Virus record (IMG/VR): IMGVR_UViG_3300024348_000001
Location: 62,001 to 126,000 of that record
Source of the DNA: a virus
Length of the DNA stretch: 64,000 nucleotides
Reading direction: 5' to 3' (one strand)
Shown: positions 7,789 through 62,335 of the stretch, in pieces
How positions within the stretch are numbered: position 1 is the stretch's first letter
Layout: each line of letters begins with the position of its first letter
Notes under the pieces: model-generated
What the model saw: the letters and a program-made list of their open reading frames with translations, nothing else
What the model was told of the DNA's origin: nothing
Databases searched by the model: none
Made by a program: the position numbers and the translations under genes

Positions 7789-8080
7789 GGGTATCTACCG
7801 TAAAAGCCAAACGGATCTTTGCATCGTGACCTTGAAGTAAGACCACGTTGAATTGATGTTGCAAAACACATTCGTAAGTAAGGCGCACTGTTACAGAAGA
7901 CAAACTGAACAATAATTCGTAACCACTTTTACTTTGCAATTCATCTAGGGTCATTTTTTTGTCGTTGTATTCCGCTGACTTTAACGCAATTGCCGGGTTT
8001 TGACACAACGGACAACAAATAGAGTAGCTTGGGCCAGTTTGATTAACTGTCAGTTGCAGGTCGAGTTTTGTTCCTAGCAC
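7772..8080 (-). CDS. Unknown protein with CPLC motif (102 aa)
   Basis: The start is GTG, supported by AAGGA nine bases before it. A CCPLC pair sits near residue 22, and the rest is beta-rich. With only one clear Cys pair, zinc binding is uncertain. It overlaps the end of the alpha-CTD-like gene by 38 bases. Confidence 0.5.
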   Translation of the reverse strand: MLGTKLDLQLTVNQTGPSYSICCPLCQNPAIALKSAEYNDKKMTLDELQSKSGYELLFSLSSVTVRLTYECVLQHQFNVVLLQGHDAKIRLAFTVDTHEPRS

Positions 8081-8351
8081 GTTTTTTATTCCTTATCCAT
8101 GTCTCGGGTATAGTCAGGTCAGCAAGTTGCAACGCTTTGACTAATTCATCTACAATCCTGTCCCCGTTATCAGGAAGCATTTCTTTGATCTGATCACGGG
8201 TTAACGGAATGATTTGATACAGATACACAAACCCTGCTTCTTTTTCAATGTGGTTGATTGTGCGCACAGATAGCGGCAATTCAGCTATGGCTGAATATTG
8301 CGGCGTTTCTTGTTCAACCGGAGCGGGTTTAAAGTAACGGCGTTTGCGCAT
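8043..8351 (-). CDS. RNA polymerase alpha C-terminal-domain-like protein (102 aa)
   Basis: A basic N-terminal tail of about 20 residues precedes a segment that matches the RpoA C-terminal domain pattern. It reads ELPLSVRTINHIEKEA, then LYQIIPLTRDQIKEMLPDNG, then a VDELVKAL helix. In RpoA the equivalents are 'eLelsvRs.NcLk.e', 'i.dLv..te.eLl...N.G' and 'l.EIke.L', a helix-hairpin-helix fold that binds UP-element DNA and activators. The alpha N-terminal assembly domain is absent. I infer a phage transcription regulator or alpha-CTD mimic. The start at 8351 is preferred over 8375. Confidence 0.65.
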   Translation of the reverse strand: MRKRRYFKPAPVEQETPQYSAIAELPLSVRTINHIEKEAGFVYLYQIIPLTRDQIKEMLPDNGDRIVDELVKALQLADLTIPETWIRNKKRARNKTRPATDS

Positions 8352-8418
8352 AATTGTTCTCACATCACTAAGCACCGACAGTACTTACAGTAACGTGAAA
8401 TTAAGCACGATTCTAGCT

Positions 8419-8973
8419 TTACCCTTCAGTAACGTCATAGCGTCCGGCTTGGAATTCTTTCCAGATGCTACTGGGGCGCGGTCCTGTTTGATTGTTATAT
8501 TTACCTTCGTACTTCAATGTGGTGGTTCCTTCTACTGTATGAAAAGCTACTTGGCAGATTTCCACGTTGGCATAAATGCGTACAGGATGCACAACCGTGA
8601 TTTCCAAGGTCCATGTGCCGTTAAATCCTATGTCACCGAATCCTGCGGTGATGTGCACAGAAATACCCATACGCCCAATTGAACTGCGTCCTTCAATAAA
8701 TGGGGCATACACGTTTGTATGCGTTACTTCATTGGTGTGGCCTAAGTACAGAACGTTAGGTTCCAGCACATAGCCTTCTGGTGGAATTTCAATTGGGATT
8801 GTTGTCGGTTCAGTACGCAAATCCAGTAAATGCGTCGTATCGTACTTTAACAGTGTTTTGCCGAGTGTCAGGTTTACACTGTTCGGGTTTAACTGGCGGA
8901 GTCGAAACGGGCGGATGACTATTTCCCCCGATTGCATCGCTGTTCGTATTGCGTTGGCCGTTAAAACCGCCAT
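8419..8973 (-). CDS. dcd: dCTP deaminase / dUTPase-family enzyme (184 aa)
   Basis: The enzyme belongs to the trimeric dUTPase fold. Visible motifs are the N-terminal LNPNSVNLTLG, the active-site loop GRSSIGRMG near residues 95-103, and TLEI with the catalytic-type Glu at about residue 124 (equivalent to the dCTP deaminase glutamate). Its 184-residue length is normal for Dcd (about 170-200). It supplies dUMP precursors or removes dUTP during phage DNA synthesis. An AAGGA Shine-Dalgarno precedes the start. A bifunctional dCTP deaminase/dUTPase cannot be excluded. Confidence 0.85.
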   Translation of the reverse strand: MAVLTANAIRTAMQSGEIVIRPFRLRQLNPNSVNLTLGKTLLKYDTTHLLDLRTEPTTIPIEIPPEGYVLEPNVLYLGHTNEVTHTNVYAPFIEGRSSIGRMGISVHITAGFGDIGFNGTWTLEITVVHPVRIYANVEICQVAFHTVEGTTTLKYEGKYNNQTGPRPSSIWKEFQAGRYDVTEG

Positions 8974-9179: not shown

Positions 9180-9521
9180 TTATTCCTGTGTTTGACTAAG
9201 GACGCGTTTGGCTTCAACCAGCAACACTTGCATTTTTTCTTGGGCAGAACTAACCATAGTGTCGATGTGCTGGATCATGCCCTCTAACATGCGTGTGGTT
9301 TGTCCGATACCGCCAAACAGCTCGCTTGGCGATTTTTCATTCTGAGACCGGGTTTGCCAAATACCTGATATGGTATCGGTAAGATTTAACTCATTGTGGT
9401 AATCAAATATGACGACGATTCCCCGTAAGTCTGCGTGTCGAAGCAACGCTTTTAACGCAACCTCTTGAAATTCCATGGCAACGTCGTGGTCAAAACGGGA
9501 GGGGTTCGTCGTTTCGGTCAT
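9180..9521 (-). CDS. Unknown helical protein (113 aa)
   Basis: A Phe/Asp-rich N-terminal region is followed by a C-terminal coiled-coil-like helix (SSAQEKMQVLLVEAKRVLSQTQE). No family is recognised. It overlaps the end of the membrane protein gene upstream by 32 bases. Confidence 0.5.
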   Translation of the reverse strand: MTETTNPSRFDHDVAMEFQEVALKALLRHADLRGIVVIFDYHNELNLTDTISGIWQTRSQNEKSPSELFGGIGQTTRMLEGMIQHIDTMVSSAQEKMQVLLVEAKRVLSQTQE

Positions 9522-9843
9522 TTGATTTATTCCATGTTAGTCGCGGCGTACGACAACGGTGGTGAAACACGTCGTTGCCGATGTTTGCAAATCGTGAAAC
9601 ACTGAAAGCAAACGCCGGAAACAACCAAAGGTTATTCTGTGTCAGTTCGCTTGCCAATACCAATCCCGCAAAACAGAAACCAATCCAAACTGAGAAACAC
9701 CAAGGACAAAGCAACAAATTACTGAAGTAATTGTTGTACAGTTCCAGCCGTGCGCGCTGCTCTGCAAACAAAGAACTGTGATGCCATATCTCAATGACTT
9801 GCCACGTGGCGAAAGCCGCAAGCAATAAACTAAACCAATTCAT
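9490..9843 (-). CDS. DUF1360-like membrane protein with CPWC motif (117 aa)
   Basis: The N-terminal hydrophobic segment ATWQVIEIWHHSSLFAEQRARLE, then LLLCPWCFSVWIGFCFAGLVLA and a third hydrophobic stretch, fit the DUF1360 pattern (R-rich loop followed by LLxCPxCxSVW). This is a small bacterial inner-membrane family. Two or three membrane passes are likely. The start overlaps the stop of the small membrane protein upstream (ATGA), implying co-expression. Role in the phage is unknown. Confidence 0.65.
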   Translation of the reverse strand: MNWFSLLLAAFATWQVIEIWHHSSLFAEQRARLELYNNYFSNLLLCPWCFSVWIGFCFAGLVLASELTQNNLWLFPAFAFSVSRFANIGNDVFHHRCRTPRLTWNKSNDRNDEPLPF

Positions 9844-10453: not shown

Positions 10454-12325
10454 GTGACTGAAGCCGTTGATTTAACGCCAAAAATTCTAGAACCTGAACT
10501 TGTTGGCTATACCAGTGACAACGTCAAAAAAATCTTGAAATTGCAAAAGGCATTGCGAGAAAGCGGAACGCCGACGCTTAAGCCTTTATTACCGTTGCTA
10601 TTTTCACTTAAAGGAAAGCCGTATTCGTTGGATAATTATTTTCCGTTTGAGCCGTTTTTTCGTACGAGGATTCCGCGCGCAACGTTACTAAAAACCGGAC
10701 GACAGGTTAGTAAATCCACGTCACTAGCTGCACAAGGAATTAGCACGGCGATTTCAATGCCGTATTTTTCAACGTTGTATGTGACACCGTTGTATGAAAT
10801 GATTCGACGGTTTTCACATAACTATGTTCGGGAATTTATTGAATCGTCACCAAGTAAAGAACTTTTGGTTAGCGAAGACTTGGCGCAAAACGTATTGCAG
10901 CGTCAATTTAATAACGGTTCTAACATGTATTTTTCGTATGCATTTTTAGATGCGGAACGTACTCGAGGTATTCCCGCAGATAAAAATGCTATAGATGAAG
11001 TACAAGATATACAGTATGATTTTTTACAAATCATTCATGAAACACTTTCTGGCAGTCCATATGCTGTGAAAGCTTACTCTGGCACACCAAAGACACTAGA
11101 TAACACAATGGAGAAATTGTGGCAAGACAGTAGTCAGGCTGAGTGGATTATTAAATGTCATCATAGCGGTTGTAACTATTGGAATGTACCTTCGCTATCT
11201 CATGATTTATTAAAGATGTTAGGACCATGGCACGAAGAAATTAGTGAAAAGATTCCCGGAGTTGTTTGTGCCAAATGCCGTAAGCACTTAAACCCTCGGT
11301 CAGGTCGGTGGGTACATGCGTATCCAGAAAGACGTTGGTCGTTTTCTGGCTATCACATTCCACAGATTATTTTGCCTATGCATTACGCCAACCCTGAAAA
11401 ATGGGACATTTTGATTGGCAAATCACAAGGCCGGGCAAATACGACATTTACTACGTTCTTGAATGAAGTGTGCGGAGAAAGTTACGACGAAGGTTCTAAA
11501 CTGTTGTCGGAAACAGATCTTAAAGCTGCTGCTGTATTACCGTGGCCGAACGACTGGCGGAAAGCTGCGGATCAGATCGGTGGATACGTTCGACGCGTAT
11601 TAGCTGTTGATTGGGGTGGCGGTGGCGGCACGCTTAAGGCAACTGGTGACAGCGGTAAAAGCCGCACCAGTTTCACGTCGTTAGCTGTATTGGGTTATCG
11701 TGCTGATGGCATAATTGATGTTCTGTGGGGCATGCGTTCACTTAAAACCCACGATTATTATTACGAATCACAGTTGGTTGTAGAAACTCTTAATCGGTTT
11801 CGCTGTTCTCATCTTGTGCATGATTATGGCGGCGCTGGAGCCATCCGTGAAACGTTTGTGCATCAAGCTGGTTGGCCTGCTGAGAATATTGTGCCGATTG
11901 CTTATCACACAACAGCCAAGCACAACATTATGACGTTTCATCCCGCCACTGAGTCACATCCACGCCACTGGTATTCCGTAGACAAATCACGTGCGTTGGT
12001 GTTGACGTCGCAATGTATCAAGTTTGGATTAATTCGATTTTTCCAATACGATTTTAAATCAGCAGACGATGCTGGTTTAATTCGAGATTTCTTGGCGTTG
12101 CTAGAAGAAAAAATTGATGGTCGCGGAACAACAGATCGATACGTGATTGTGCGGCATCCTAATTTACCTGACGATTTTGCACAAGCCGTTAACATCGGTT
12201 CTTGCGCGTTGTGGCACATTGCAAAACGCTGGCCAGATTTGTCCGTTACTATGAAATTTCAAATCCCTATGGATCTGGAAGAATTAGCCAAACCCCGTCG
12301 CGTCGTCGATTGGGAGGAGATCTGA
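10454..12325 (+). CDS. terL: Terminase large subunit (623 aa)
   Basis: The ATP-driven motor that packages DNA into the prohead. The Walker A-like motif TGRQVSKST is at about residues 81-89 and the Walker B acidic pair (IDEVQD) at about 181-182. The YSGTP coupling motif follows near 210. A four-Cys zinc insertion (C235, C240, C272, C275) comes next, then a nuclease domain with Asp at about 386 (LAVDWGG) and 457 (HDYGG) and a C-terminal DD pair. The length is typical. The start is GTG with AAGG upstream. It is transcribed opposite to its neighbours and its end overlaps the convergent primase-like gene by 42 bases. Confidence 0.9.
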   Translation: MTEAVDLTPKILEPELVGYTSDNVKKILKLQKALRESGTPTLKPLLPLLFSLKGKPYSLDNYFPFEPFFRTRIPRATLLKTGRQVSKSTSLAAQGISTAISMPYFSTLYVTPLYEMIRRFSHNYVREFIESSPSKELLVSEDLAQNVLQRQFNNGSNMYFSYAFLDAERTRGIPADKNAIDEVQDIQYDFLQIIHETLSGSPYAVKAYSGTPKTLDNTMEKLWQDSSQAEWIIKCHHSGCNYWNVPSLSHDLLKMLGPWHEEISEKIPGVVCAKCRKHLNPRSGRWVHAYPERRWSFSGYHIPQIILPMHYANPEKWDILIGKSQGRANTTFTTFLNEVCGESYDEGSKLLSETDLKAAAVLPWPNDWRKAADQIGGYVRRVLAVDWGGGGGTLKATGDSGKSRTSFTSLAVLGYRADGIIDVLWGMRSLKTHDYYYESQLVVETLNRFRCSHLVHDYGGAGAIRETFVHQAGWPAENIVPIAYHTTAKHNIMTFHPATESHPRHWYSVDKSRALVLTSQCIKFGLIRFFQYDFKSADDAGLIRDFLALLEEKIDGRGTTDRYVIVRHPNLPDDFAQAVNIGSCALWHIAKRWPDLSVTMKFQIPMDLEELAKPRRVVDWEEI

Positions 12326-13978
12326 TTCAACGTCGTCTTCAACGTCACCCGGGTATTGATAAATTTTAGGTTCTTGGAAAAGTCGTGATATGCGGCGAAG
12401 CGACATGTCCCCCGAATTAATCTTGGGTAAGCCAAGTCCGGCATCAATACATGTTGTAATAATTTTTTGCTGAAATTGGTTTTCGTCGGCTAGTTCTGTT
12501 TTAGAGAAAGTGACTGGCAACGCTTCGCCTTTAAACCACAACACACTTTCCGCCACGTGATCAATTCCACGCTGACAGATTGATTTAAGTCTGACAGAAA
12601 AATTAGTCATTTGCAGAAAATCTGTAGGCGCAAGTCTTATAAACCAACCGTCTTTGTTTTCAACAACAAGCCATGCTTTATTTTTGTCAAACAATCGCAC
12701 GCACTTTACGCCATCAATAACAGTGTGCTCTTGTGCCCAGTCTTTGTACTCGTTTGCAATTTCATCAACATCTATATTGGCTAGTAATAAAGCGTTGAAG
12801 AATTCTTTGACTTTGTTTGAGGGTGCAGCCGTTAACCATTTTCGCAACGCATCACGCCAAGGCAAAGCACGTCGAATAATGTAACGCATCAGATCTTCGG
12901 GTTTTTTGGTTTTAATCATTTCAGCAAACGCAGCATCAGTCATGTCCAACAACGCTAGCATGCCACCACTGGAGTAAGCGGCTTGTATGACAGACGGTGT
13001 TGGCGCGCAGCCGACAATGACAATATTTTTTTGTTTAACCGCTGACCACGACACCGTTTGCGTATTTTGATGCGGTTCAAAAAACCACGATACGATAGGC
13101 AAAGGCGTGGTAGACATTAGCGCGTGTCGAGATTGAATACGCAGCGCAATCAACGGATCTTCTAGCGCTATCGCATAATCTCCGCATGTAGTTTGTCCAA
13201 GGATGCTAGCGGACAATCCCCACAAGCCTGCATCGTTTGGTCTGGCTTTGCTATTGAACGTGTTGTCACTGGTACGGCATCGCGTGTAAAGCCTTTGCAA
13301 TTTACCGTGCCTATTTCCAACGCACAGCATGCCTTGAATAAGTCCGGGTGCTAGTTCGTATGGCAGCACCAAAACGTCTCCCCATCCACCCGGAAAACGC
13401 ACAGGCAACGTAATGATGCGATCGTATAAATGCTTTTTGCGAGATGTACCTACGTAATGTTTGTAAGGGCTACCTAATGCCTTTTCTAATTCCTTGTTAT
13501 GGTTTGCAGCAATGTATCGTTCTAATTTAGGAACGAACGATTCCCATTTACGTTGCGACAAATTAAATGTGTTTAGTATCGCGTTAACAGCCATGGGTGG
13601 TTTGCGAAAGTAAGATTCACAAGCTGCCCACGCGTCCGTCGCTTTGTGTCGAGCTGCAATAAATTGTTCTTGGTAGCGCCGAATTGATTCTATCGGTAGA
13701 CTTATCATAGAGGGGACGGCGCGTTTACCAAGTTCGACGAATGTGGCGTCAATAGTCATATTCCAACATGCGGCAAGTAATTCAACAAAGTCGCCATTAT
13801 GTTTACAAGCTTTACAATGCTGCCAACCCACGTTATTTGTGGTATCCTGATAGGCAACCATGCTTTTGACTGCATGACAGAGCGGACAATCAACTGTGAC
13901 CGGCAAAGCGTCAGCTTTGTCAAGATTTAGGAAACCGGCAACAACGTTCCAGTTGAGTTCGATATTAGGAGGGAGCAC
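12284..13978 (-). CDS. DnaG-like zinc-binding primase, degenerate TOPRIM (564 aa)
   Basis: The N-terminal zinc ribbon CPLC...HCKACKHNGDFVELL is the DnaG primase type. A TOPRIM-like region follows: a conserved Glu-type block ALEDPLIALRIQ near the middle, then a hydrophobic strand IVIVGCAPTP where the family usually has DxD. That acidic pair is absent, so catalytic competence is doubtful. No helicase P-loop is seen. The start GTG at 13978 has GAGG eight bases upstream, which is better than a GTG at 14002. Confidence 0.65.
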   Translation of the reverse strand: MLPPNIELNWNVVAGFLNLDKADALPVTVDCPLCHAVKSMVAYQDTTNNVGWQHCKACKHNGDFVELLAACWNMTIDATFVELGKRAVPSMISLPIESIRRYQEQFIAARHKATDAWAACESYFRKPPMAVNAILNTFNLSQRKWESFVPKLERYIAANHNKELEKALGSPYKHYVGTSRKKHLYDRIITLPVRFPGGWGDVLVLPYELAPGLIQGMLCVGNRHGKLQRLYTRCRTSDNTFNSKARPNDAGLWGLSASILGQTTCGDYAIALEDPLIALRIQSRHALMSTTPLPIVSWFFEPHQNTQTVSWSAVKQKNIVIVGCAPTPSVIQAAYSSGGMLALLDMTDAAFAEMIKTKKPEDLMRYIIRRALPWRDALRKWLTAAPSNKVKEFFNALLLANIDVDEIANEYKDWAQEHTVIDGVKCVRLFDKNKAWLVVENKDGWFIRLAPTDFLQMTNFSVRLKSICQRGIDHVAESVLWFKGEALPVTFSKTELADENQFQQKIITTCIDAGLGLPKINSGDMSLRRISRLFQEPKIYQYPGDVEDDVESDLLPIDDATGFG

Positions 13979-13981
13979 GCT

Positions 13982-15148
13982 ATGCCTCGTAATGTAGACC
14001 ACATCGCTGACAACAACGGCGTTGAATTATACCGTCTGTCGTTGACGCATACTTTGCCAGAATTTGTCAAGAAGGCAAGTCCTGAAAGTATTTATGACGT
14101 CAAAGGCGTTGCGTCTAGCAATTATGCCGATGTGATTAGTCATCAGTTTCCGTGTCACACACCGCAATGCACGTGGTTGAGCACAGCTTTTTTCTTTGAT
14201 AAGAAAGCTGAGTTTTCTGAAAAAGATCAGAAACGCATAGAGTCTCGACTTGAAAAGTTTGCAGCACATTGGGGTATCCGTTCGGAATACAGTGCTGTTA
14301 AGTCTCGTAGTAATCAATTAGAAAAGACAGCTACTGACGTATTGCCTGATTCCAGTTATGCGTGGGTATGGGTTGATGATTCTGGATCAAAAGATCGCAG
14401 ATTGCCGTTGCGCAATGCTTTAGAAGTTAAGACAGCAGCAGATTGGTTACATCAATACCGTGATAATTTCACGTACGCTGATCGTAATCGCATGGCTGTT
14501 AAGATTCTTGAGAAGGTAGCACAGTTTGGCGCTGCCGTTGGTGACAAACTTGAGTTTCTGGAAAAGCAAGCTGGCCACGGCGTATGCAATCCAAAAGAAG
14601 TGCATGCATTGTTGCAGGACCGTATTAAGTTGGCGAACAACGACGAGCACCGCAACATTTTGCAAGCGCTGGCTGACAGCGTGCTTAATACGCCTAAGAT
14701 GGTTCTGACCAGTAATCAATTGGTGAAGTTGGCCACAGTCATCGACACGACGGACCGTGCGCTTAATTTGACTAAGGGTTACGGTTCTATTCTTCAGCGC
14801 CCAGAAGATGTAATTTTTAGCGCTACGTTTACTAAGACAGCTTCTGAATTGCATGAGCATGTATCGACAACGTCTGGCCGCATGTACAACAAACAAGACT
14901 TTGGCAAGGTTGCATTGGATGACCTTAAGTCTTTGTTTGGTGAAGATTTTGCTGACCGCGTGCGAAGTGGACTGGACGTGGACGCGGAAAAGCTGGCGGA
15001 AGAGATCTCAACTCTTCCGCGTCCTGACGCCGAAATGTTTGACTCCCTAATGTCAGAAGTAGGAGTCAAACCCGCAGTTGTTAAGACAGCAGGTGTTCAC
15101 ATGAACAAAGCTGCTGCGGCTTATTATGCTAATTTACTGACGCACTAA
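13982..15148 (+). CDS. Unknown plus-strand protein, possibly virion-associated (388 aa)
   Basis: The Shine-Dalgarno GGAGG precedes the ATG by about 9 bases, inside the start region of the divergent primase-like gene. The protein is soluble and mostly helical, with a WVDDSG...RRLPLRNALEVKTAADWLHQY segment, a region containing FLEKQAGHGVCN, and an acidic C-terminus. KTA occurs at least four times (EKTA, VKTA, TKTA, VKTA). I do not recognise a named family. It shares strand with the terminase, so a packaging or capsid role is a guess. Confidence 0.6.
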   Translation: MPRNVDHIADNNGVELYRLSLTHTLPEFVKKASPESIYDVKGVASSNYADVISHQFPCHTPQCTWLSTAFFFDKKAEFSEKDQKRIESRLEKFAAHWGIRSEYSAVKSRSNQLEKTATDVLPDSSYAWVWVDDSGSKDRRLPLRNALEVKTAADWLHQYRDNFTYADRNRMAVKILEKVAQFGAAVGDKLEFLEKQAGHGVCNPKEVHALLQDRIKLANNDEHRNILQALADSVLNTPKMVLTSNQLVKLATVIDTTDRALNLTKGYGSILQRPEDVIFSATFTKTASELHEHVSTTSGRMYNKQDFGKVALDDLKSLFGEDFADRVRSGLDVDAEKLAEEISTLPRPDAEMFDSLMSEVGVKPAVVKTAGVHMNKAAAAYYANLLTH

Positions 15149-15395: not shown

Positions 15396-15679
15396 TATGT
15401 TGCCTCCAGTACGTAATTAGTCACTAGCCAATCAACCTCAGCTTTTACCGCAGCATGATACGAATCAAACACGACGGGCAGACAGAAGTAATGTTCTGTT
15501 CTGCCCGTAATCTTAAACAACGGCTCAAAGTCTACCGAAAATTTACCGGCGCAATCGCCGGTTTCAATTACTTCTACTCTGGATGCACGGGCAGGCATCT
15601 CATGCCTGTGGCGATATGTTGTCGCCTGATCCACTACCTGCCGGATTGATCCGTCCGGGAGGTATCTCTTGACTGTCAT
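15395..15679 (-). CDS. Unknown protein (94 aa)
   Basis: Small alpha/beta protein with a Tyr/Arg/His-rich beginning, a central FSVDFEPLF strand and a Trp-containing C-terminal helix. No family is recognised. Its first 27 codons overlap the end of the neighbouring zinc protein gene. Confidence 0.5.
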   Translation of the reverse strand: MTVKRYLPDGSIRQVVDQATTYRHRHEMPARASRVEVIETGDCAGKFSVDFEPLFKITGRTEHYFCLPVVFDSYHAAVKAEVDWLVTNYVLEAT

Positions 15680-15845
15680 TGGTGCTTAGTCCTTCCCATG
15701 TCTCTGCTGGCCATTCTTTGTCGATCATGTACCGCCACTGCATTTCTTGATCGAAGCATTTACGGCAGACAGCGATAACCCACGTAGGCGTCAGTCGCAG
15801 GTTACGGCGCTCGACTGTATCGTTGCAACTGTCACACGTTCTCAT
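15600..15845 (-). CDS. Zinc-ribbon protein (81 aa)
   Basis: The start at 15845 (MRTCDSCN) is chosen for the GGAGA Shine-Dalgarno. CDSC near the N-terminus and CRKC about 25 residues later form a ribbon. The C-terminal Ser/Gly-rich tail runs 80 bases into the next gene and may be disordered. Likely a small binding protein. Confidence 0.55.
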   Translation of the reverse strand: MRTCDSCNDTVERRNLRLTPTWVIAVCRKCFDQEMQWRYMIDKEWPAETWEGLSTNDSQEIPPGRINPAGSGSGDNISPQA

Positions 15846-16077
15846 GTTCAGTTCTCCGCCATGCAATCGAACTAGGCGTCTCTCTGATCATCCATTCGTA
15901 CCCAGAGCCAACTTCCAGCATCGTGATGTGCGCGATGCTTTCCAGCTCGGTTCGATACTCACTAGGATCAGCGTGCTTTACCATATCTTTTGCTTTTTCA
16001 AGCGCTTCGTAACGGTTGTCCGCAAGCACGTCTAGCGTGTGCGTTTGAATTGACGTGATCTTAACTTGGTATTTCAT
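15832..16077 (-). CDS. Unknown small protein (81 aa)
   Basis: A beta strand (KYQVKITSIQTHTLDV) is followed by a helix (NRYEALEKAKDMVKHA), then a C-terminal His/Glu-rich tail. The fold resembles a small ferredoxin-like unit, but no family is recognised. It overlaps the stop of the upstream gene by four bases. Confidence 0.55.
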   Translation of the reverse strand: MKYQVKITSIQTHTLDVLADNRYEALEKAKDMVKHADPSEYRTELESIAHITMLEVGSGYEWMIRETPSSIAWRRTEHENV

Positions 16078-24019: not shown

Positions 24020-24096
24020 AGGTCCTCCTTGCTCATCTCGTTATAAATAAACGGGATGCAAAGAATATGACGCGTTTTTGCCTTGGATTTAGGCTG

Positions 24097-45712: not shown

Positions 45713-46648
45713 TTACTTGGTGTTATTCCACAATTTAAACAAAGAAGCATCAACATCCTGTGACTTAGGTTGATAGTATTGGCAGAAGGCAAAAACTTCG
45801 CCGGATGAAATCATTCCTTCCAGTGCCTTGCGGGTAATACGTAGGCAACCGGCAGGCAATTGGGTTTTATCGTAAAAGTCGTAAAGCTTTCCGTGCACAT
45901 CACCCCACGAATTACGAATAATTGCGTAAGGTTCTTTCCATTCGTCATCGATGTCCAGAATGCACATCTGATGTCCCCATTTACCTGACTGTTGGTGGAA
46001 ACCACTAGAGTCAGGCAGCATGGAGAAACCGTAGTTACTGGCGACTGTCATGCCGTAACCATTAACACTGTAAGTCACGGCGTCTTCCCATGATTTGATC
46101 TCAACGGCAGATCTAATCAGGAAGTTCTTGCCAACGTCCAGCATCCCAGCAGGTGGACCGGACTTACCCCACGCCCGAGCGATAGATCCCGAGTACGGCG
46201 GCACTTTGTCTTCACCGAAATAGATGGTCCCGTATGCCATTACGGCTGCGGCCATCCAGCTCCCGTAAGAACCGTCACCGTTACCAGCTTTGCCTTTACC
46301 AACCTGCACGCGGGATGTGCCGTAGTAATAAGGCGGGAACGGGTCTTTCCAAATCTCGCTCTCATTGCGGACGACGATATCTACGCAACCCGTAACTGCG
46401 GCGGCATTGCGAGCTCCCCAAGAAACGCAATCGCCCACTTCTTGGGGAATATTCTTAATGTCCTTGCCGTCTAAAGCTTTACGCACAGCTTTATAATTGG
46501 ATGATTTACGCGCGCGACCGGGCTCAAGTATTAATCGATTTTGTATAAAATTATAGGTACTTCTAATTCCAGCAAATTCTTCTGCTGCGCCCTCTTCCGA
46601 CCATCCCCTCGTTGTACCGTCGATATATTCGTCGATGATTGACATCAT
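45713..46648 (-). CDS. Papain-like (C1-type) cysteine protease (311 aa)
   Basis: The catalytic Cys sits in VGDCVSWGARN (about residue 74 from Met 46648), the His in KWGHQMCIL (about 226) and the Asn in IIRNSWGD (about 246). This is the C1 papain order Cys-His-Asn. No signal peptide is visible. In the tail module it could process virion proteins or attack the host surface during entry. The start at 46648 has GGAGAG upstream; 46645 is an alternative. Confidence 0.75.
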   Translation of the reverse strand: MMSIIDEYIDGTTRGWSEEGAAEEFAGIRSTYNFIQNRLILEPGRARKSSNYKAVRKALDGKDIKNIPQEVGDCVSWGARNAAAVTGCVDIVVRNESEIWKDPFPPYYYGTSRVQVGKGKAGNGDGSYGSWMAAAVMAYGTIYFGEDKVPPYSGSIARAWGKSGPPAGMLDVGKNFLIRSAVEIKSWEDAVTYSVNGYGMTVASNYGFSMLPDSSGFHQQSGKWGHQMCILDIDDEWKEPYAIIRNSWGDVHGKLYDFYDKTQLPAGCLRITRKALEGMISSGEVFAFCQYYQPKSQDVDASLFKLWNNTK

Positions 46649-46655
46649 ACTCTCC

Positions 46656-47372
46656 TTATTTAGCCGCCATTGCCGCAAAGCCGCTGCTAAGTTCTAAGAA
46701 TGCTACACGAAAATCTTCAGGCTTTACCAGTTTCTTGTCCCGGTTTAGTTTAAGCAATTCGTCCTGCAAAGCTACCGCACTTTTCTCCCATTTAGCTTTG
46801 TCCGCTGTCAGATTGGACAGTGTTGCGTCGTTTTGCTCGGTTACTGTTTGCAGAATCTTTGCGACTTGCGTCAAAGTACCTGCGCCGATTTGCGATGCTG
46901 TCACTCTAAAATTTTCAGCAAAAGCCGCAGCAACTTCTTTACGCCCCGCAGAAGCTGCAACACTACCGTCCACACTTTTGTAAATAAATGTACCGAGACC
47001 GTACGTCTCGTCATCGATCTTTGGTGTTGGAATTGGCATTGGTGGTACAGGGATGGGGGTGGGTGGAACTGGCTCAGGATTACCGTCGCCAACAACAACA
47101 GTGACAATGACCGGCAAACTTGGCTTGTCGGCAAGTGCGGTATACGCCAGCAATCGGTATTTTCCGGGTTTTACCGCAGTGACAACAGTTGCGGTAGTGT
47201 CATTAAGCAATGCAGCAGGAAACACGGACAGCCCATTGTCGAGCGGAAAGTATTGCACAATCTTGCCATCAGTCTTAGTGGGCCGCACAGCAATAAATTG
47301 CCCGGGAGCCCCTGTAAACGTAGCGGGCATTTCAATGTTTTGGCCACAAAGAGCCAGTATGAGCGCAAGCAT
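46656..47372 (-). CDS. Ig-like secreted/anchored protein (238 aa)
   Basis: The start at 47372 is preferred (GGGAG upstream). A very short hydrophobic N-terminus MLALILALCG suggests export or a lipid/short membrane anchor. A compact beta domain (TGAPGQFIAVRP...YFPLDNGLSVFPAALLN...YRLLAYTALADKPSLPVIVTVVVG) has an Ig-like pattern I associate with Planctomycetota and their phages. A Pro-rich linker and a C-terminal helical part follow. It sits next to the papain-like protease, a common pairing. Confidence 0.6.
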   Translation of the reverse strand: MLALILALCGQNIEMPATFTGAPGQFIAVRPTKTDGKIVQYFPLDNGLSVFPAALLNDTTATVVTAVKPGKYRLLAYTALADKPSLPVIVTVVVGDGNPEPVPPTPIPVPPMPIPTPKIDDETYGLGTFIYKSVDGSVAASAGRKEVAAAFAENFRVTASQIGAGTLTQVAKILQTVTEQNDATLSNLTADKAKWEKSAVALQDELLKLNRDKKLVKPEDFRVAFLELSSGFAAMAAK

Positions 47373-47453
47373 CGAATACTCCCTGTACAAAAGAGTCTAA
47401 CTTGTTGTGCAACATTATTACATGAAAAACAAGGCCTTTTGTCGATTCCTCAC

Positions 47454-49103
47454 TTAACCTTCAGGAATCGCCGTTTCAATTGTGACAAATACGTCTTCCG
47501 CCCGACAGAAAAATTGTGTTGTGCGGTATGTTACTAAACTTTCTGGAGCATCGGGAATTTGAATAAACTCTGAATTACGCAAGTACTTATTGGATCCGTC
47601 GGGGTAGCGGATGCGTCCAAAAATATCAATTGCGCCGACGCTGCTGTTCGTAGGCAAGAAACCGTGTACAACGTCTTGAATTTTGGAAGCGTACACGCGC
47701 CCAACAAAACCTACGGCATTAATTGCGCTTGAAACGGCTAACTGGATGGCAGCTACATCGGGTGCTGTTTCGTTGGATTGCTTGTAAACCGTGAAACTTA
47801 TTTGTACGAAACACGGCACAGGAGCTTTAATCAAACAGTCAGCCCCGTGATGCCTAATATCTCGGGAATTAACTGTGTTTTGTACTTCCATAATTAACGG
47901 CATGTATTGAATGTCGGCATCGTATTCCAACGTAGCCCCTGCGCTGTATGTCGCAGAGTCTTGAGTCGTGTCGGCAAATTTAATAACGGCTGTTTGATAC
48001 CGAGAATACGCAGCTTCGGTTGCAGAAATAATGTCAGGCACAAAATCGTCTGTGCCAAGATCGTATCCACGTGTGTCGGATACCAACAACAATTTACCCA
48101 AAGCTACAGCCGCATTCTTAGGCCGTATTGCGCGCACCTCGTAAAATCCGGGTGCTGTGTCTCGGGAAATAGAAAATTGCCAAATAGGTTGACCTGCAAT
48201 TGTATTTTCACTTAAACGAACAGCGGTTATTGTTTTTTGCACTGTAACAGGCAAATACTCGCTACGAACATACCAATCCGCGCGCCCACCTAATGCAACA
48301 GGGAAAATAGAATGTTTGTCCCTAAACATTTCGGCGTCACCGCAGCCAATAATTGACGTACCAACAATTCGGCTATACGCATCAATGTTTCGTAAAAAAG
48401 CTGCCATAGTTACGCGGTTGGACAATGTTTTAGCCGCAATACCTTCTTGCAATCGTTTTAAAACAGCTGTGTTTGTTTCAGCAGTTGTACCTGACGAAAA
48501 ATCCGTGATTGCGTAAGAAGTTACATAGGCGGGCGGAGGATTGACCGGAACAACCAGTGTGTTTTTTTCAATGTTGTATTCGGCGCCTGTGGCAAGTGCT
48601 TCAACTTCCAACGTAAACATATACCGCCCATCGGCTGTTGGCGTAATCAACCGATCCGTTGCAGTATTAACTTGTGCGGCTTCAGCTTTAGCAGAATAAA
48701 CTTGCGTGGTGCGGTACCGTAAACCTTGAGCTTGAAAAAATGTATTGCGCCCGAGCGTCACTGTGATGTTGTTGCTCAGGATAATAGCAACACTGCCTGT
48801 AGCTGCGGTACCGGCTTTTCGTTCCAGCCGAAAATTGGATAATACGTCGTCAACCAAATCAGTGTCGGCCAGATCAGGATCTTGCTCCAGTGCCAATAAA
48901 CTACGTGCTCGCCGATAGTCATTAATGAGTGTATCGAGACGAGTCGCCAACAGTGCGTGATAGTAGACAAGTAATTCGTAAAAGACGCCACGACTAACAT
49001 CAAGCGTAGGATTATCTTCTGCTATTCGTTGGCTAACTTCGTCGATAGACGCCGCAACCAATTCGGCAGACAATGCATCAAGCGCTTGTGGGGTAACTGC
49101 CAT
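47454..49103 (-). CDS. Baseplate J-like protein (549 aa)
   Basis: Wedge component of the contractile-tail baseplate. The N-terminal LAALSAELVAASIDEV-type helix and the GVFYELLVYYHAL segment fit the Baseplate_J family. In the C-terminal part a typical stretch SNRVTMAAFLRNIDAYSRIV...GCGDAEMFRDKHSIFPVALGGRADWYVR is present. The length is normal for this family. Next to a gp25-like gene, as in other myoviruses. Confidence 0.8.
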   Translation of the reverse strand: MAVTPQALDALSAELVAASIDEVSQRIAEDNPTLDVSRGVFYELLVYYHALLATRLDTLINDYRRARSLLALEQDPDLADTDLVDDVLSNFRLERKAGTAATGSVAIILSNNITVTLGRNTFFQAQGLRYRTTQVYSAKAEAAQVNTATDRLITPTADGRYMFTLEVEALATGAEYNIEKNTLVVPVNPPPAYVTSYAITDFSSGTTAETNTAVLKRLQEGIAAKTLSNRVTMAAFLRNIDAYSRIVGTSIIGCGDAEMFRDKHSIFPVALGGRADWYVRSEYLPVTVQKTITAVRLSENTIAGQPIWQFSISRDTAPGFYEVRAIRPKNAAVALGKLLLVSDTRGYDLGTDDFVPDIISATEAAYSRYQTAVIKFADTTQDSATYSAGATLEYDADIQYMPLIMEVQNTVNSRDIRHHGADCLIKAPVPCFVQISFTVYKQSNETAPDVAAIQLAVSSAINAVGFVGRVYASKIQDVVHGFLPTNSSVGAIDIFGRIRYPDGSNKYLRNSEFIQIPDAPESLVTYRTTQFFCRAEDVFVTIETAIPEG

Positions 49104-49593: not shown

Positions 49594-50091
49594 TTAAGCA
49601 CCTTTAACTTGACGACTTTGTTTTAGAAGCCCGCGCAGATATTCAACGTTGTTTTGCGTGAATGGACCCGTGTCAGAGCTGTGTGCTTTTTTACGTCCAA
49701 TTACATGACACGTGGCGCGTATTCTGCGCATCGTATGCCGCATACGTAACGCACGTTCCATTACGCTTAATGTTTCTGCCATAGTTGTGGCAGCAATAAT
49801 ATCGCCAACAGTTCCCGGCGGTGCTTGCTTTGTTGCCGGAGAAAGTACTTCGGAAAACTCGTCAAATATGTCTTGCCGTGAAAACGGTCCTGACATATTT
49901 TCTAATTCCGCAACACCAAGTGCGCCATCCCAATCTCCCGGACGAAACCATACGTGTCCCCGTCCTTGGGATAAATTTGATACTGCGTCTTCTGCATGCG
50001 TTATAAAATCACGAAAACGACCTTCGTAATTTGCGTCCATGTTGACTTTGCTGCGTGGACGAAATTCTTGCGAAGATTGCGCTGCCATCAC
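49594..50091 (-). CDS. Unknown virion-region protein (165 aa)
   Basis: Basic N-terminus and C-terminal helix (MERALRMRHTMRRIRATCHVIGRKK), acidic middle. It overlaps the start of the next gene by four bases. In this position (between baseplate wedge genes and hub) a small baseplate component is plausible. No family is recognised. Confidence 0.5.
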   Translation of the reverse strand: MMAAQSSQEFRPRSKVNMDANYEGRFRDFITHAEDAVSNLSQGRGHVWFRPGDWDGALGVAELENMSGPFSRQDIFDEFSEVLSPATKQAPPGTVGDIIAATTMAETLSVMERALRMRHTMRRIRATCHVIGRKKAHSSDTGPFTQNNVEYLRGLLKQSRQVKGA

Positions 50092-50831
50092 CCGCCTCCA
50101 AACGGCGACAATTCGCCACCTTGATCCAAAAATGCTTGAATGCGCGCCTTACCTTGACTAATAGCTCCGGGGGAACGCTTTAATTTATTAGCAAGCTCCA
50201 TGTTGCTTAAAAGACGTTTTCCGTTTAAACCCAACGTATGTTCCATAATCTGTTGATGGTATGGATCAAGATCGTCGTATACAAATCGAGTCCAAGCAGA
50301 ATGCTGTTGTTTTTGCCAAGGATTGCTTGCTGCGCCTTCGTAACCAGACGTGCCGGTTTCAGGGTCTACAATTTGTCCTTCAGATACTGGCGCATAGAAC
50401 TTACGAACGCTATGCATGCGTTTTGACGACAAACCCGTTTTATCGGATAATTCATTATCTGTGGGTGATCGTCCAAGTTCGTGTTCTAAATCTTTCTCGG
50501 CCTGCGAGAGAAAATAACTATCTTGCATTACACGTTCAGGCGTTTTTAATACGCTGGTCTGTTGGCGATTAATTCGTTTAAGGCCTTGCAATTGTCCGTA
50601 CACATACGCACTGAGGCGCCCACGATTTGGAGCATAGCCGTGCATAGTATCCAACACGAGTTTACGAGCACGACTTTCAATCAATGGGTTGCTTTCGCCA
50701 ACGTGTGTTTTAATTGCGCCAGCAATGGTAGGTTTTAACGCTTTAAGTAAACCAGCGTTGCTTTCTTGTCCGGGCGTAGTTTTCCACGCCCGATATGGCT
50801 CAGCAAATTCAGGTTCAATGTCCTGTGCCAT
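50088..50831 (-). CDS. Sigma-70-family-like protein in the tail module (247 aa)
   Basis: A segment RGRLSAYVYGQLQGLKRINRQQTSVLKTPERV resembles sigma-70 region 2.3-2.4 (aromatic, 'R.P..v'). It is followed by a region 3-type SQAEKDLEHELGRSPTDNELSDKTGLSSKRM and, near the end, a helix-turn-helix-like NMELANKLKRSPGAISQGKARI as in region 4. The first 60 residues are helical. A transcription factor in the middle of the baseplate genes is unusual; virion packaging or late gene control are alternatives. Confidence 0.6.
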   Translation of the reverse strand: MAQDIEPEFAEPYRAWKTTPGQESNAGLLKALKPTIAGAIKTHVGESNPLIESRARKLVLDTMHGYAPNRGRLSAYVYGQLQGLKRINRQQTSVLKTPERVMQDSYFLSQAEKDLEHELGRSPTDNELSDKTGLSSKRMHSVRKFYAPVSEGQIVDPETGTSGYEGAASNPWQKQQHSAWTRFVYDDLDPYHQQIMEHTLGLNGKRLLSNMELANKLKRSPGAISQGKARIQAFLDQGGELSPFGGG

Positions 50832-59539: not shown

Positions 59540-62335
59540 TCACCCTATTTGGAGAAAACCTTCTTCCATCGTTACGTTCTGTATATTACCCAATTCAGGC
59601 TCGTCGTAAACCCCCGACGCCCGAGACGCTGCATTTCCTGTTGCTGTATCTAACAAGCCTCCACCTATGGCTATCATAAAATTTTCTTCCTCTTTCCACG
59701 CTTTACGCCCGGGCCACGGATACAAGTCTACACCTTGATATGACACGGGATTTTCAATCCAGCTTTCACCGCCAGTACCAAGACCCAACGATACAAATTT
59801 TTCCCAACGACGCTGATCCCACAACATATTTGCGGTTTTATACTGGTTTTGATCTTCGGTATCTCGATAACTAAATTGCATATTTTTAATTGTGGTGTCG
59901 TTGCCAAGTTGTCTGTCTTGGTAATACGACTGCACAAAATACGTGTCGTGCATTTCTTTACCTGCATCTTTAAATGCGGCTACGGCATCTGCTTGAGGCT
60001 TGGTAATGTCATCCAAAGCACCAGATAACGTGTCTGGAACTTTTCCAACCATACCCGCCTTAGACTGGGCAAAAGTTTTAAGCGTTGCAATGCTGCCTTT
60101 AGCGTATACGCCGCCAGTTGTAAAAATGCTTTTGTTGTCGCCGTAATTAGTAATGTTGCCCCCAACTAATAGGTTTACTGGAAGGATTGCGCTGGTTGCG
60201 TTAAAACTATACGCAAAATTAACGGTACTGTCTTCGTTGGACGGACCTATAAGGAAATCAACGCTTTTATTGCAGAATACAGCTACACGACTACCGTAGA
60301 AATTAATTTGACTGCGTCCTTTGTCAGCGTCCAAATTGATTTGTTTATCCGCTGCCGAACGCAAATACACGTCTCCGCCATATGCAGCAACTACGCTGTC
60401 GGGAGCTTTAAATACAATTCCATTTGAAACAACGTCTTGGCCAATGTTGTTTTCGTATTCTTGCAACGAGCCCATTCCCTTGCACTCAACAAGTACACCG
60501 CCTTGGCCGCCATTACCTGCCAACATGTGCAAATTGCGTTGTGCTTTAATACGCACGTCGTTATCAGATGCAGAAATGTCTACAGAAGTTTTAGCTCTCA
60601 ACACAATCTGATTACCCATAACAACTATGTTTCTTCCGGGTACCAGTTCAATATCCCCAGCACATTCCAATCGAATTTTACCGCCAACCATTTTGATTGC
60701 AGAACCAAAACCGTCGGCTAAAACAACACCGCCATCTTCGAGGAAACACAAGAAAGACGTTGTTTGATAGTACAAGACCTCGGCGTAACGATGATCGATA
60801 CGCATAGAGCGAGGAGACACCGGTGACATGGTGTTAGCCCCGCCCAATTCTGCAAAATTCAAATTGTCCTGCACTTGTGTAAACGTAGTGCCTTCCGATT
60901 CTTCCCGTACCCGGTAATCGTTCTTGTGGTAATGGAAGGGATGCACGCGTTTCCAATTAACTGCATAAGCGATTAATTCATCTACGCCCATAACCCGACG
61001 AATGCTTGGATTGTCGTCAGGTACGCGTACATCGCCGACACGATGTTGTGTTGCGTTACCGAAGTAACCTGAATACCGATAATTATCCGCTTTAGCGTCG
61101 TCGCCAGTACCGTCAGCTGCATCTTTGCGCTGCTCCGCAATTGGCATGTTAACACGCCGACCTATCATGACGGATTTGGCGCTAAATAAATGGTACGATC
61201 CGTCTAATCCAATCCATTCCTCAAACACGCCCTCAGGTGAACGTGCAGAAAGTGTATTTTTTCCGTCAAAAAGTGGTACGGCAACTTCACGCACATGTCC
61301 CTGTCCTAGATATCCGCCGTATTCGCGGTAACGGTAGAATGGGCGGGAATCGGCCGTGTCTTCTGTGGCACGTGACTCCGTCGTCTCGGGTTTACCGCTT
61401 ACGTCATATGGCGCATACGGCCACGCCCCTTTGTCAGGATCATCTTGCCGTTTAAACGCATCAGCATTATTTAAACCGTCAGTGTAGTCACTACCAATTT
61501 GCGTATCAGGACGTGACAATCCCAGCGCTTCCCACGGATACGTGGCTACGCCCGCAACAAAAGTAGATTCGCCTTCATCGTTACCTGTATCAAGTTCGTA
61601 GGTTGCGGATTCTACCAATAACTGCTGTCCTGCGATACGTAAGTGGCTATCGATCAACGAGCCCCAAATACCGCACATTTCGTTAACACGTAATTGGAAC
61701 ATGTAGTCATCAAGCGAAAATAACAAACCTGTAGCGGTACTAAACACCTTTTCTTGCGACGTTAGGTCTCGAGGACGGCCTGCTGAAAAATCAAGCGCAC
61801 TGGCGGCGTTTAAAAGACGTTGCACGGGATACGAATGCACTTGCTCTTGAAACATGCCCGACATTCCGCCTTGACTGATAAAGTCGGAATAATTTTTACC
61901 TTGAGTTAAATCTTCTAACTTTTTGACGGGATACACCGAAGGAATAGAACCAATAATATAACCAAATGGTGAATTTCGAGGCGTATATACCAAAACCGTT
62001 GAGCCAGCAGGATACACCGTTGCATCACGTACACCAAACGGCATAAAACTAGCCGTACTGAGCGAACAACAACGCATCACACCGCGACTATCGTTTAATT
62101 GAACGCGATGCCACCCCAGATAAGGAATAGTGTGCGCAACAACACCGATAATGAGAGATTGACTGCCAAGTACATTGTGTTGTGTCTGCAAAACTCGATT
62201 AACGTCTCGCGCGTTAGCGTGAGGACTAATAAACATAGCCTCTAAGTTACGAAGCGCAGAGTCTAGTTGAGGTACGCTGGAATTGTTGTTATTACCGAAA
62301 ATATTGTCAGTCGCACCAAGATGCGAGTCATTCAT
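59540..62335 (-). CDS. Large baseplate/spike-like virion protein (931 aa)
   Basis: Near the start, SLIIGVVAHTIPYLGWHRVQLNDSRG resembles an OB-fold entry strand of hub/spike proteins such as gp5. The middle has Gly/Asp-rich beta stretches (GGKIRLECAGDIELVPGRNIVVMGNQIVL...VDISASDNDVRIKAQRN) typical of a triangular beta-helix spike. The C-terminus is mixed. It lies between tail tube and tail assembly genes. I infer a central spike or cell-puncturing protein; the enzyme motifs of gp5 lysozyme are not seen. Confidence 0.6.
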   Translation of the reverse strand: MNDSHLGATDNIFGNNNNSSVPQLDSALRNLEAMFISPHANARDVNRVLQTQHNVLGSQSLIIGVVAHTIPYLGWHRVQLNDSRGVMRCCSLSTASFMPFGVRDATVYPAGSTVLVYTPRNSPFGYIIGSIPSVYPVKKLEDLTQGKNYSDFISQGGMSGMFQEQVHSYPVQRLLNAASALDFSAGRPRDLTSQEKVFSTATGLLFSLDDYMFQLRVNEMCGIWGSLIDSHLRIAGQQLLVESATYELDTGNDEGESTFVAGVATYPWEALGLSRPDTQIGSDYTDGLNNADAFKRQDDPDKGAWPYAPYDVSGKPETTESRATEDTADSRPFYRYREYGGYLGQGHVREVAVPLFDGKNTLSARSPEGVFEEWIGLDGSYHLFSAKSVMIGRRVNMPIAEQRKDAADGTGDDAKADNYRYSGYFGNATQHRVGDVRVPDDNPSIRRVMGVDELIAYAVNWKRVHPFHYHKNDYRVREESEGTTFTQVQDNLNFAELGGANTMSPVSPRSMRIDHRYAEVLYYQTTSFLCFLEDGGVVLADGFGSAIKMVGGKIRLECAGDIELVPGRNIVVMGNQIVLRAKTSVDISASDNDVRIKAQRNLHMLAGNGGQGGVLVECKGMGSLQEYENNIGQDVVSNGIVFKAPDSVVAAYGGDVYLRSAADKQINLDADKGRSQINFYGSRVAVFCNKSVDFLIGPSNEDSTVNFAYSFNATSAILPVNLLVGGNITNYGDNKSIFTTGGVYAKGSIATLKTFAQSKAGMVGKVPDTLSGALDDITKPQADAVAAFKDAGKEMHDTYFVQSYYQDRQLGNDTTIKNMQFSYRDTEDQNQYKTANMLWDQRRWEKFVSLGLGTGGESWIENPVSYQGVDLYPWPGRKAWKEEENFMIAIGGGLLDTATGNAASRASGVYDEPELGNIQNVTMEEGFLQIG

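Follow-up and report, generated by a model that had tools for sequence, protein, structure and literature searches.

A free-standing protein resembling the C-terminal domain of the RNA polymerase alpha subunit in a phage that encodes a polymerase without detectable alpha and its own sigma factor

The polymerases of jumbo phages have been described without alpha, omega or recognisable initiation factors (PMC7598289, PMC7824862, PMC13282480). In the virions of Salmonella phage Arash, the polymerase protein Gp206 is the most detected protein, and Gp216 and the sigma factor Gp10 are also present (PMC10585845). Free-standing C-terminal domains of the bacterial alpha subunit (alpha-CTDs) are already known from phages by annotation: gp5 of Bacillus phage vB_BmeM-Goe8, gp26 of Microbacterium phage Mazun and gp23 of Ruegeria phage vB_RpoS-V16 carry an alpha-CTD without the alpha N-terminal domain, like the protein analysed here, and the same applies to the BFVD entries from uncultured Caudovirales phages named 'RNA polymerase, alpha subunit, C-terminal'. 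The sequence match of our protein to these other phage alpha-CTDs is confined to the domain, the N-terminal parts or fusions being different. A search of open-licence papers recovered no study of a phage-encoded free-standing alpha-CTD protein. What we consider new is the combination, in one phage, of an alpha-less polymerase, a sigma factor and the DNA-binding half of alpha alone.

The DNA analysed, hereafter the window, is a stretch of 64,000 nucleotides (positions 62,001 to 126,000) of the IMG/VR virus record IMGVR_UViG_3300024348_000001, which is 186,054 bp long and is denoted G000 below. A comparison of the first 25 kb of DNA with named phages gave no match. The gene of interest, which encodes the protein P0001, lies in a conserved block with the following features:

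8043..8351, minus strand: gene of the free-standing alpha-CTD-like protein (P0001, 102 aa), delineated by the ORF, PF03118, PDB profile searches that included relatives, and the conserved gene block
8112..8294, minus strand: alpha-CTD domain, residues 20-80 (PF03118 matched to residues 15-75; alignments; predicted helices)
8419..8973, minus strand: dCTP deaminase gene upstream of the alpha-CTD gene, the marker of the block (PF22769, E=1.7e-37; phrog_1663, E=8.6e-44), found in the same order in the related viruses G003 and G004
9180..9521, minus strand: conserved block gene of unknown function, with counterparts in the same order in G003 and G004
9490..9843, minus strand: conserved block gene of unknown function, with counterparts in G003 and G004 at about 40% identity

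The original prediction had placed an alpha-CTD-like protein at 8043-8351 on the strength of the motifs LSVRTIN, LTRDQI and DNG, and all three are indeed present in one complete and intact ORF that runs on the minus strand of the window from an ATG at 8351 to a stop ending at 8043. This ATG is favoured as the start over a GTG at 8375 because the relatives also open with M-(PPxN)-R-K/R-R-R. The encoded sequence (MRKRRYFKP...SAIAELPLSVRTINHIEKEAGFVYLYQIIPLTRDQIKEMLPDNGDRIVDELVKALQLADLTIPETW...) has a simple layout in which a basic N-terminus is followed by the alpha-CTD domain and a basic C-terminus. The gene is part of a minus-strand run and comes directly after the dCTP deaminase gene; the gene of the terminase large subunit (10454-12325) has the orientation opposite to that of this run. 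A further, 96%-identical copy of the alpha-CTD gene (L002) has all 4 of its amino acid changes located outside residues 20-79 and a dN/dS of about 0.15, so that this is a real gene under constraint.

Several other features of this neighbourhood were noted. The end of the terminase gene is overlapped by a gene on the minus strand (window 12284-14002) for a 572-aa conserved protein of unknown function that shows a weak match to an Elf1-like zinc ribbon and has a relative in G003 at 25% identity. The terminase large subunit gene of G003 (L052:2002-4404) is broken by an intein-like insert (Intein_splicing, E=3.5e-10) and that of G004 (L053:16141-19413) carries a long insert, whereas the window copy has none.

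In a comparison with Pfam, P0001 matched RNA_pol_A_CTD (PF03118) as the sole family, at an E-value of 1e-3 over the whole of Pfam and 1.5e-4 within the record; its score of 19.3 bits falls below the curated cut-off of 23.8. When P0001 was compared alone with the PDB, the CTD of Thermus RpoA was found at an E-value of about 0.09; a PHROGs search assigned it to no family, and tblastn against named phages gave no match. Two relatives from the same gene block, P0002 and P0003, which share 46-48% identity between them and about 27-34% with P0001, score well above the PF03118 cut-off (53.8 and 48.4 bits; E=2e-14 and 8e-13). A joint profile of all three proteins retrieved from the PDB the alpha-CTDs of RpoA, with a best E-value of 1.9e-11, and 51 RpoA chains ranked ahead of the first non-RpoA protein. 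The assignment of P0001, which is borderline when taken alone, is based on its clear relatives.

Structure prediction, which had been proposed as a check, gave a divided answer. The predicted model of P0002 (pLDDT 77) fits alpha-CTD structures in Foldseek at TMt 0.8-0.9, rmsd 1.5-2.0 A and prob 1.00 (e.g., 1z3e_B, TMt 0.83 and 2.0 A; 9dvt_A, TMt 0.88 and 1.5 A), nearly all of the 50 matches listed being RpoA CTDs or whole alpha chains; the E-values do not go below 2e-3, a modest level that is to be expected with such a small domain. The model of P0001 itself, which is poor (pLDDT 70), yielded no significant match in the fold search, and its predicted helices (residues 29-39, 44-47, 52-58 and 63-76) follow an order similar to that of the alpha-CTD. 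Sequence profiles, gene order and the predicted fold of a relative together bear out the view that the protein is alpha-CTD-like, with a helix-hairpin-helix, and the 102-aa product consists of the CTD only, as had been anticipated: the N-terminal dimerisation and assembly domain of RpoA (PF01193/PF01000) is absent. That P0001 is an alpha-CTD-like domain without the alpha N-terminal domain can accordingly be taken as confirmed at the level of sequence comparison.

The residues of the domain were compared with E. coli alpha as the guide. We take R265, N268, C269, G296, K298, S299 and E302 to be the DNA-contact residues of E. coli alpha, and D259 and E261 to be those that contact sigma region 4. 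Two elements of the window protein correspond to the DNA-contact surface:

8235..8267, minus strand: predicted first DNA-contact helix, residues 29-39, with R30 and N33 as the counterparts of E. coli R265 and N268
8124..8177, minus strand: second DNA-contact element (predicted hairpin and helix), residues 59-76, with G63, R65 and E69 at the positions of E. coli G296, K298 and E302

Across the family, the equivalents of R265, N268, G296 and E302 are invariant and that of K298 is K or R. P0001 keeps 5 of the 7 DNA-contact residues (K298 as R), the exceptions being C269, which is H in P0001 and H or T across the family, and S299, replaced by T in the relatives and by I in P0001; the neighbouring K297 is also changed, to D in P0001. 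The DNA-contact set is weakly over-represented among the invariant positions (p about 0.03), a value qualified by the conservation of these positions in alpha-CTDs generally. As for the sigma-contact positions, D259 is E in all members of the family and E261 is replaced by P, N or A. P0001 thus resembles the bacterial RpoA CTD (PF03118; PDB 1z3e, 3k4g) in the helix-hairpin-helix, the order of helices and the five DNA-contact positions, but differs from bacterial RpoA in having no N-terminal dimerisation domain or linker, in the loss of E261, in its basic tails and in being phage-encoded.

G000 encodes its own multisubunit RNA polymerase and a sigma factor. Two polymerase ORFs lie outside the window, one of 1498 aa (G000 165918-170414; L020:8918-13414) that joins beta to the N-terminal portion of beta' and contains the catalytic NADFDGD, and one of 1369 aa (G000 157574-161683; L020:574-4683) comprising the C-terminal part of beta'. 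The corresponding Pfam families PF00562, PF00623 and PF04998 were found in G000 and PF01193 was absent, so that this is a beta/beta' enzyme without detectable alpha: a search for the alpha N-terminal domain PF01193 at E<=1 found none in G000, while the same search was positive in 13 of 14 control genomes, and PF01000 was found in none of 11 records (ten related ones and the outsider Goe8). The phiKZ-type systems have two polymerase sets, one virion and one non-virion; PF00562 and PF04998 each have a single match in G000, and a divergent second set could escape this kind of detection. A search of G000 for a T7-type polymerase gave no match, as did its control. Against bacterial assemblies, the G000 polymerase retrieved only distant loci with 24-32% identity, mostly ordinary rpoB/rpoC. 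The sigma factor is encoded within the window:

50088..50831, minus strand: gene of a sigma-70-like factor (P0004, 247 aa; match to Sigma70_r3, E=2.8e-5, and relationship to Arash Gp10, E=4e-10), a candidate partner for the phage polymerase

Pfam Sigma70_r2 is blind to this protein, which was detected as a sigma factor only through comparison with Arash Gp10; its C-terminal end, judged by eye, contains a region-4-like helix-turn-helix. Relatives are encoded in G003, G004, G006, G008, G011, G014, Arash and D69. Among the long records tested from this clade, only G015, whose polymerase is a relative at 25% identity, showed none.

The polymerase resembles the phiKZ/AR9-type enzymes of jumbo phages (PMC7598289) in being phage-encoded, of the beta/beta' type and devoid of alpha and omega, but differs from them in that a single ORF of G000 encodes beta together with the N-terminal portion of beta', in that a sigma-70-like factor is encoded, and, within the subclade of G000, in the addition of a detached alpha-CTD. 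The fusion is not general because in G003 and G004 separate ORFs encode beta and the N-terminal portion of beta'. Arash, a distant relative (Gp206, Gp216 and sigma Gp10; PMC10585845), shares the related beta-beta' fusion and sigma factor, its proteins matching the two G000 polymerase ORFs at E=4e-202 and 1.6e-41; in contrast to G000, no alpha-CTD gene was found in it.

Three side observations concern the same genome. The ORF for the C-terminal part of beta' additionally bears a P-loop kinase-like domain and DUF5661. Several proteins encoded near the polymerase gene (L020:5887-8899, 15428-15865) have similar N-termini (MITASELGKLAARVK-A and the like), perhaps a head-targeting peptide. Finally, L004:3718-7074 (G000 45718-49074) encodes a protein of 1118 aa in which uracil-DNA glycosylase, 3'-5' exonuclease and family A DNA polymerase are fused.

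The G000 polymerase gene was used as the lead to related viruses, the closest of which are G003 and G004 (60% and 58% polymerase identity). Both possess clear alpha-CTD genes (49.5 and 54.5 bits). In each virus the alpha-CTD gene lies downstream of that for dCTP deaminase, adjoining it in G003 and following about two small genes later in G004, and the genes on either side are collinear with those of the window. A family profile run over 17 records, several of them fragmentary, matched only G001-G004, with G001 and G002 being near-copies of the virus from which the window comes; no member was detected in Arash (a complete genome), D69 (a full-length assembly) or relatives with 31-44% polymerase identity. 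A match in G011 was rejected as a weak, generic helix-hairpin-helix protein. Given that the polymerase and sigma factor belong to the core of the wider clade and that the alpha-CTD gene is found only in G001-G004, the alpha-CTD protein is a subclade addition and looks like a transcription factor acquired in one close subclade.

A PWM scan of G000 picked out a promoter-like motif at nine sites, each on the minus strand, a single one of which falls in the window:

24059..24092, minus strand: promoter-like motif CTAAATCC-N11-GCGTCATATaACATG (also written CTAAATCC-N11-GCGTCATAT)

The other copies are at G000 positions 2316, 2764, 27595, 28749, 180199, 180715, 183594 and 184655. Eight copies score 42-48 and one 29, with the next-best site at 13.6, and related sites are present in G003 and G004. 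CTAAAT and the CATATA-like part lie about 17 bp apart, the distance to be expected of a promoter that depends on sigma. No AT-rich UP-like element was found upstream of the nine motifs (mean AT 0.56 over 25 nt, compared with about 0.54 in the window), and no copy of the motif is present at the alpha-CTD gene block. Promoter-like sites hence exist in this genome, but no link between them and the alpha-CTD protein emerged. Some copies directly follow terminator-like T-runs, and within about 10-20 nt downstream of several (e.g., 180715, 183594, 184655 and 2764, judged by eye) comes a hairpin whose loop resembles CCATTTCGG; it is apparently a 5' leader structure common to these copies.

From these comparisons we propose, with moderate confidence, that P0001 is a trans-acting DNA-binding factor, most likely one that provides a sigma-dependent polymerase with an additional DNA contact upstream, the phage enzyme being a somewhat likelier partner than that of the host. 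The small basic helix-hairpin-helix protein would bind promoter-region DNA through the surface that alpha applies to UP elements, act in trans as a transcription factor and supply the upstream contact to the polymerase; it may also touch the region-4 area of sigma, as the alpha-CTD does in bacteria, and would probably activate rather than repress. The phage sigma-polymerase is slightly favoured over the host holoenzyme because the phage supplies sigma and lacks alpha, which makes its enzyme at least as plausible a partner. The presence of polymerase and sigma together with the undetected alpha N-terminal domain in G000 counts for P0001 as a polymerase factor, as do the virion location of the related Arash polymerase and sigma and the promoter-like motif shared by G000, G003 and G004. 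Its location outside the polymerase gene region counts against, as do the changes at E261, C269, S299 and K297, the lack of an AT-rich UP-like element upstream of the motifs and the poor model of P0001. Moreover, the polymerase can do without the alpha-CTD protein, given that the gene is missing from Arash, D69, G006, G008 and G014, which encode a polymerase and a sigma factor of this type. The most specific form of the proposal, in which the function of alpha is split and an alpha-less sigma-dependent polymerase uses the detached alpha-CTD as a separate promoter-binding subunit, is tentative, and we regard it as rather unlikely.

An action of P0001 on the host, in line with the original suggestion that a phage copy could compete with or replace the host domain, is possible, if on balance unlikely. 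The protein would bind UP elements or region 4 of the host sigma and either compete with the host alpha-CTD, thereby lowering host transcription, or aid the host RNA polymerase at phage promoters, as might be expected from the conserved DNA face of the domain and from the occurrence of free-standing alpha-CTDs in other phages, such as Bacillus phage Goe8 gp5 (a comparison based on the alpha-CTD protein alone). The T4 proteins Alt and ModA target R265 of host alpha, which speaks for the same reading. Rac is a further case of phage attack on host alpha (cited in PMC13282480, PMC7824862), and some jumbo phages with their own RNA polymerase still encode factors acting on host transcription (PMC13282480). 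Against a host target stands the fact that this phage carries its own polymerase and sigma factor.

We consider it improbable that P0001 is a DNA-binding protein derived from an alpha-CTD and repurposed for a non-initiation role, for instance in replication, packaging, or nucleoid or nuclease targeting. In its favour, helix-hairpin-helix domains bind DNA in many generic settings, the neighbouring genes include that of dCTP deaminase directly beside it and that of the terminase close by, basic tails flank the domain on both sides, and in Ruegeria phage V16 the alpha-CTD starts a protein annotated as a pyrophosphatase; however, what is conserved is the set of DNA-contact residues specific to alpha, and RpoA is matched better than other helix-hairpin-helix families. 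Finally, the sub-threshold Pfam score of P0001 and the failure of its own model to match a fold might be read as chance resemblance in an unrelated small helical protein, but this is very improbable and is largely refuted by the unambiguous relatives from the same gene block.

Should P0001 be directed at the host, it would represent a simple domain mimicry for redirecting host promoters. With P0001 as a factor for the phage polymerase, which we slightly favour, the subclade may be viewed as a natural experiment on whether the promoter contact of alpha can work untethered from its assembly role.
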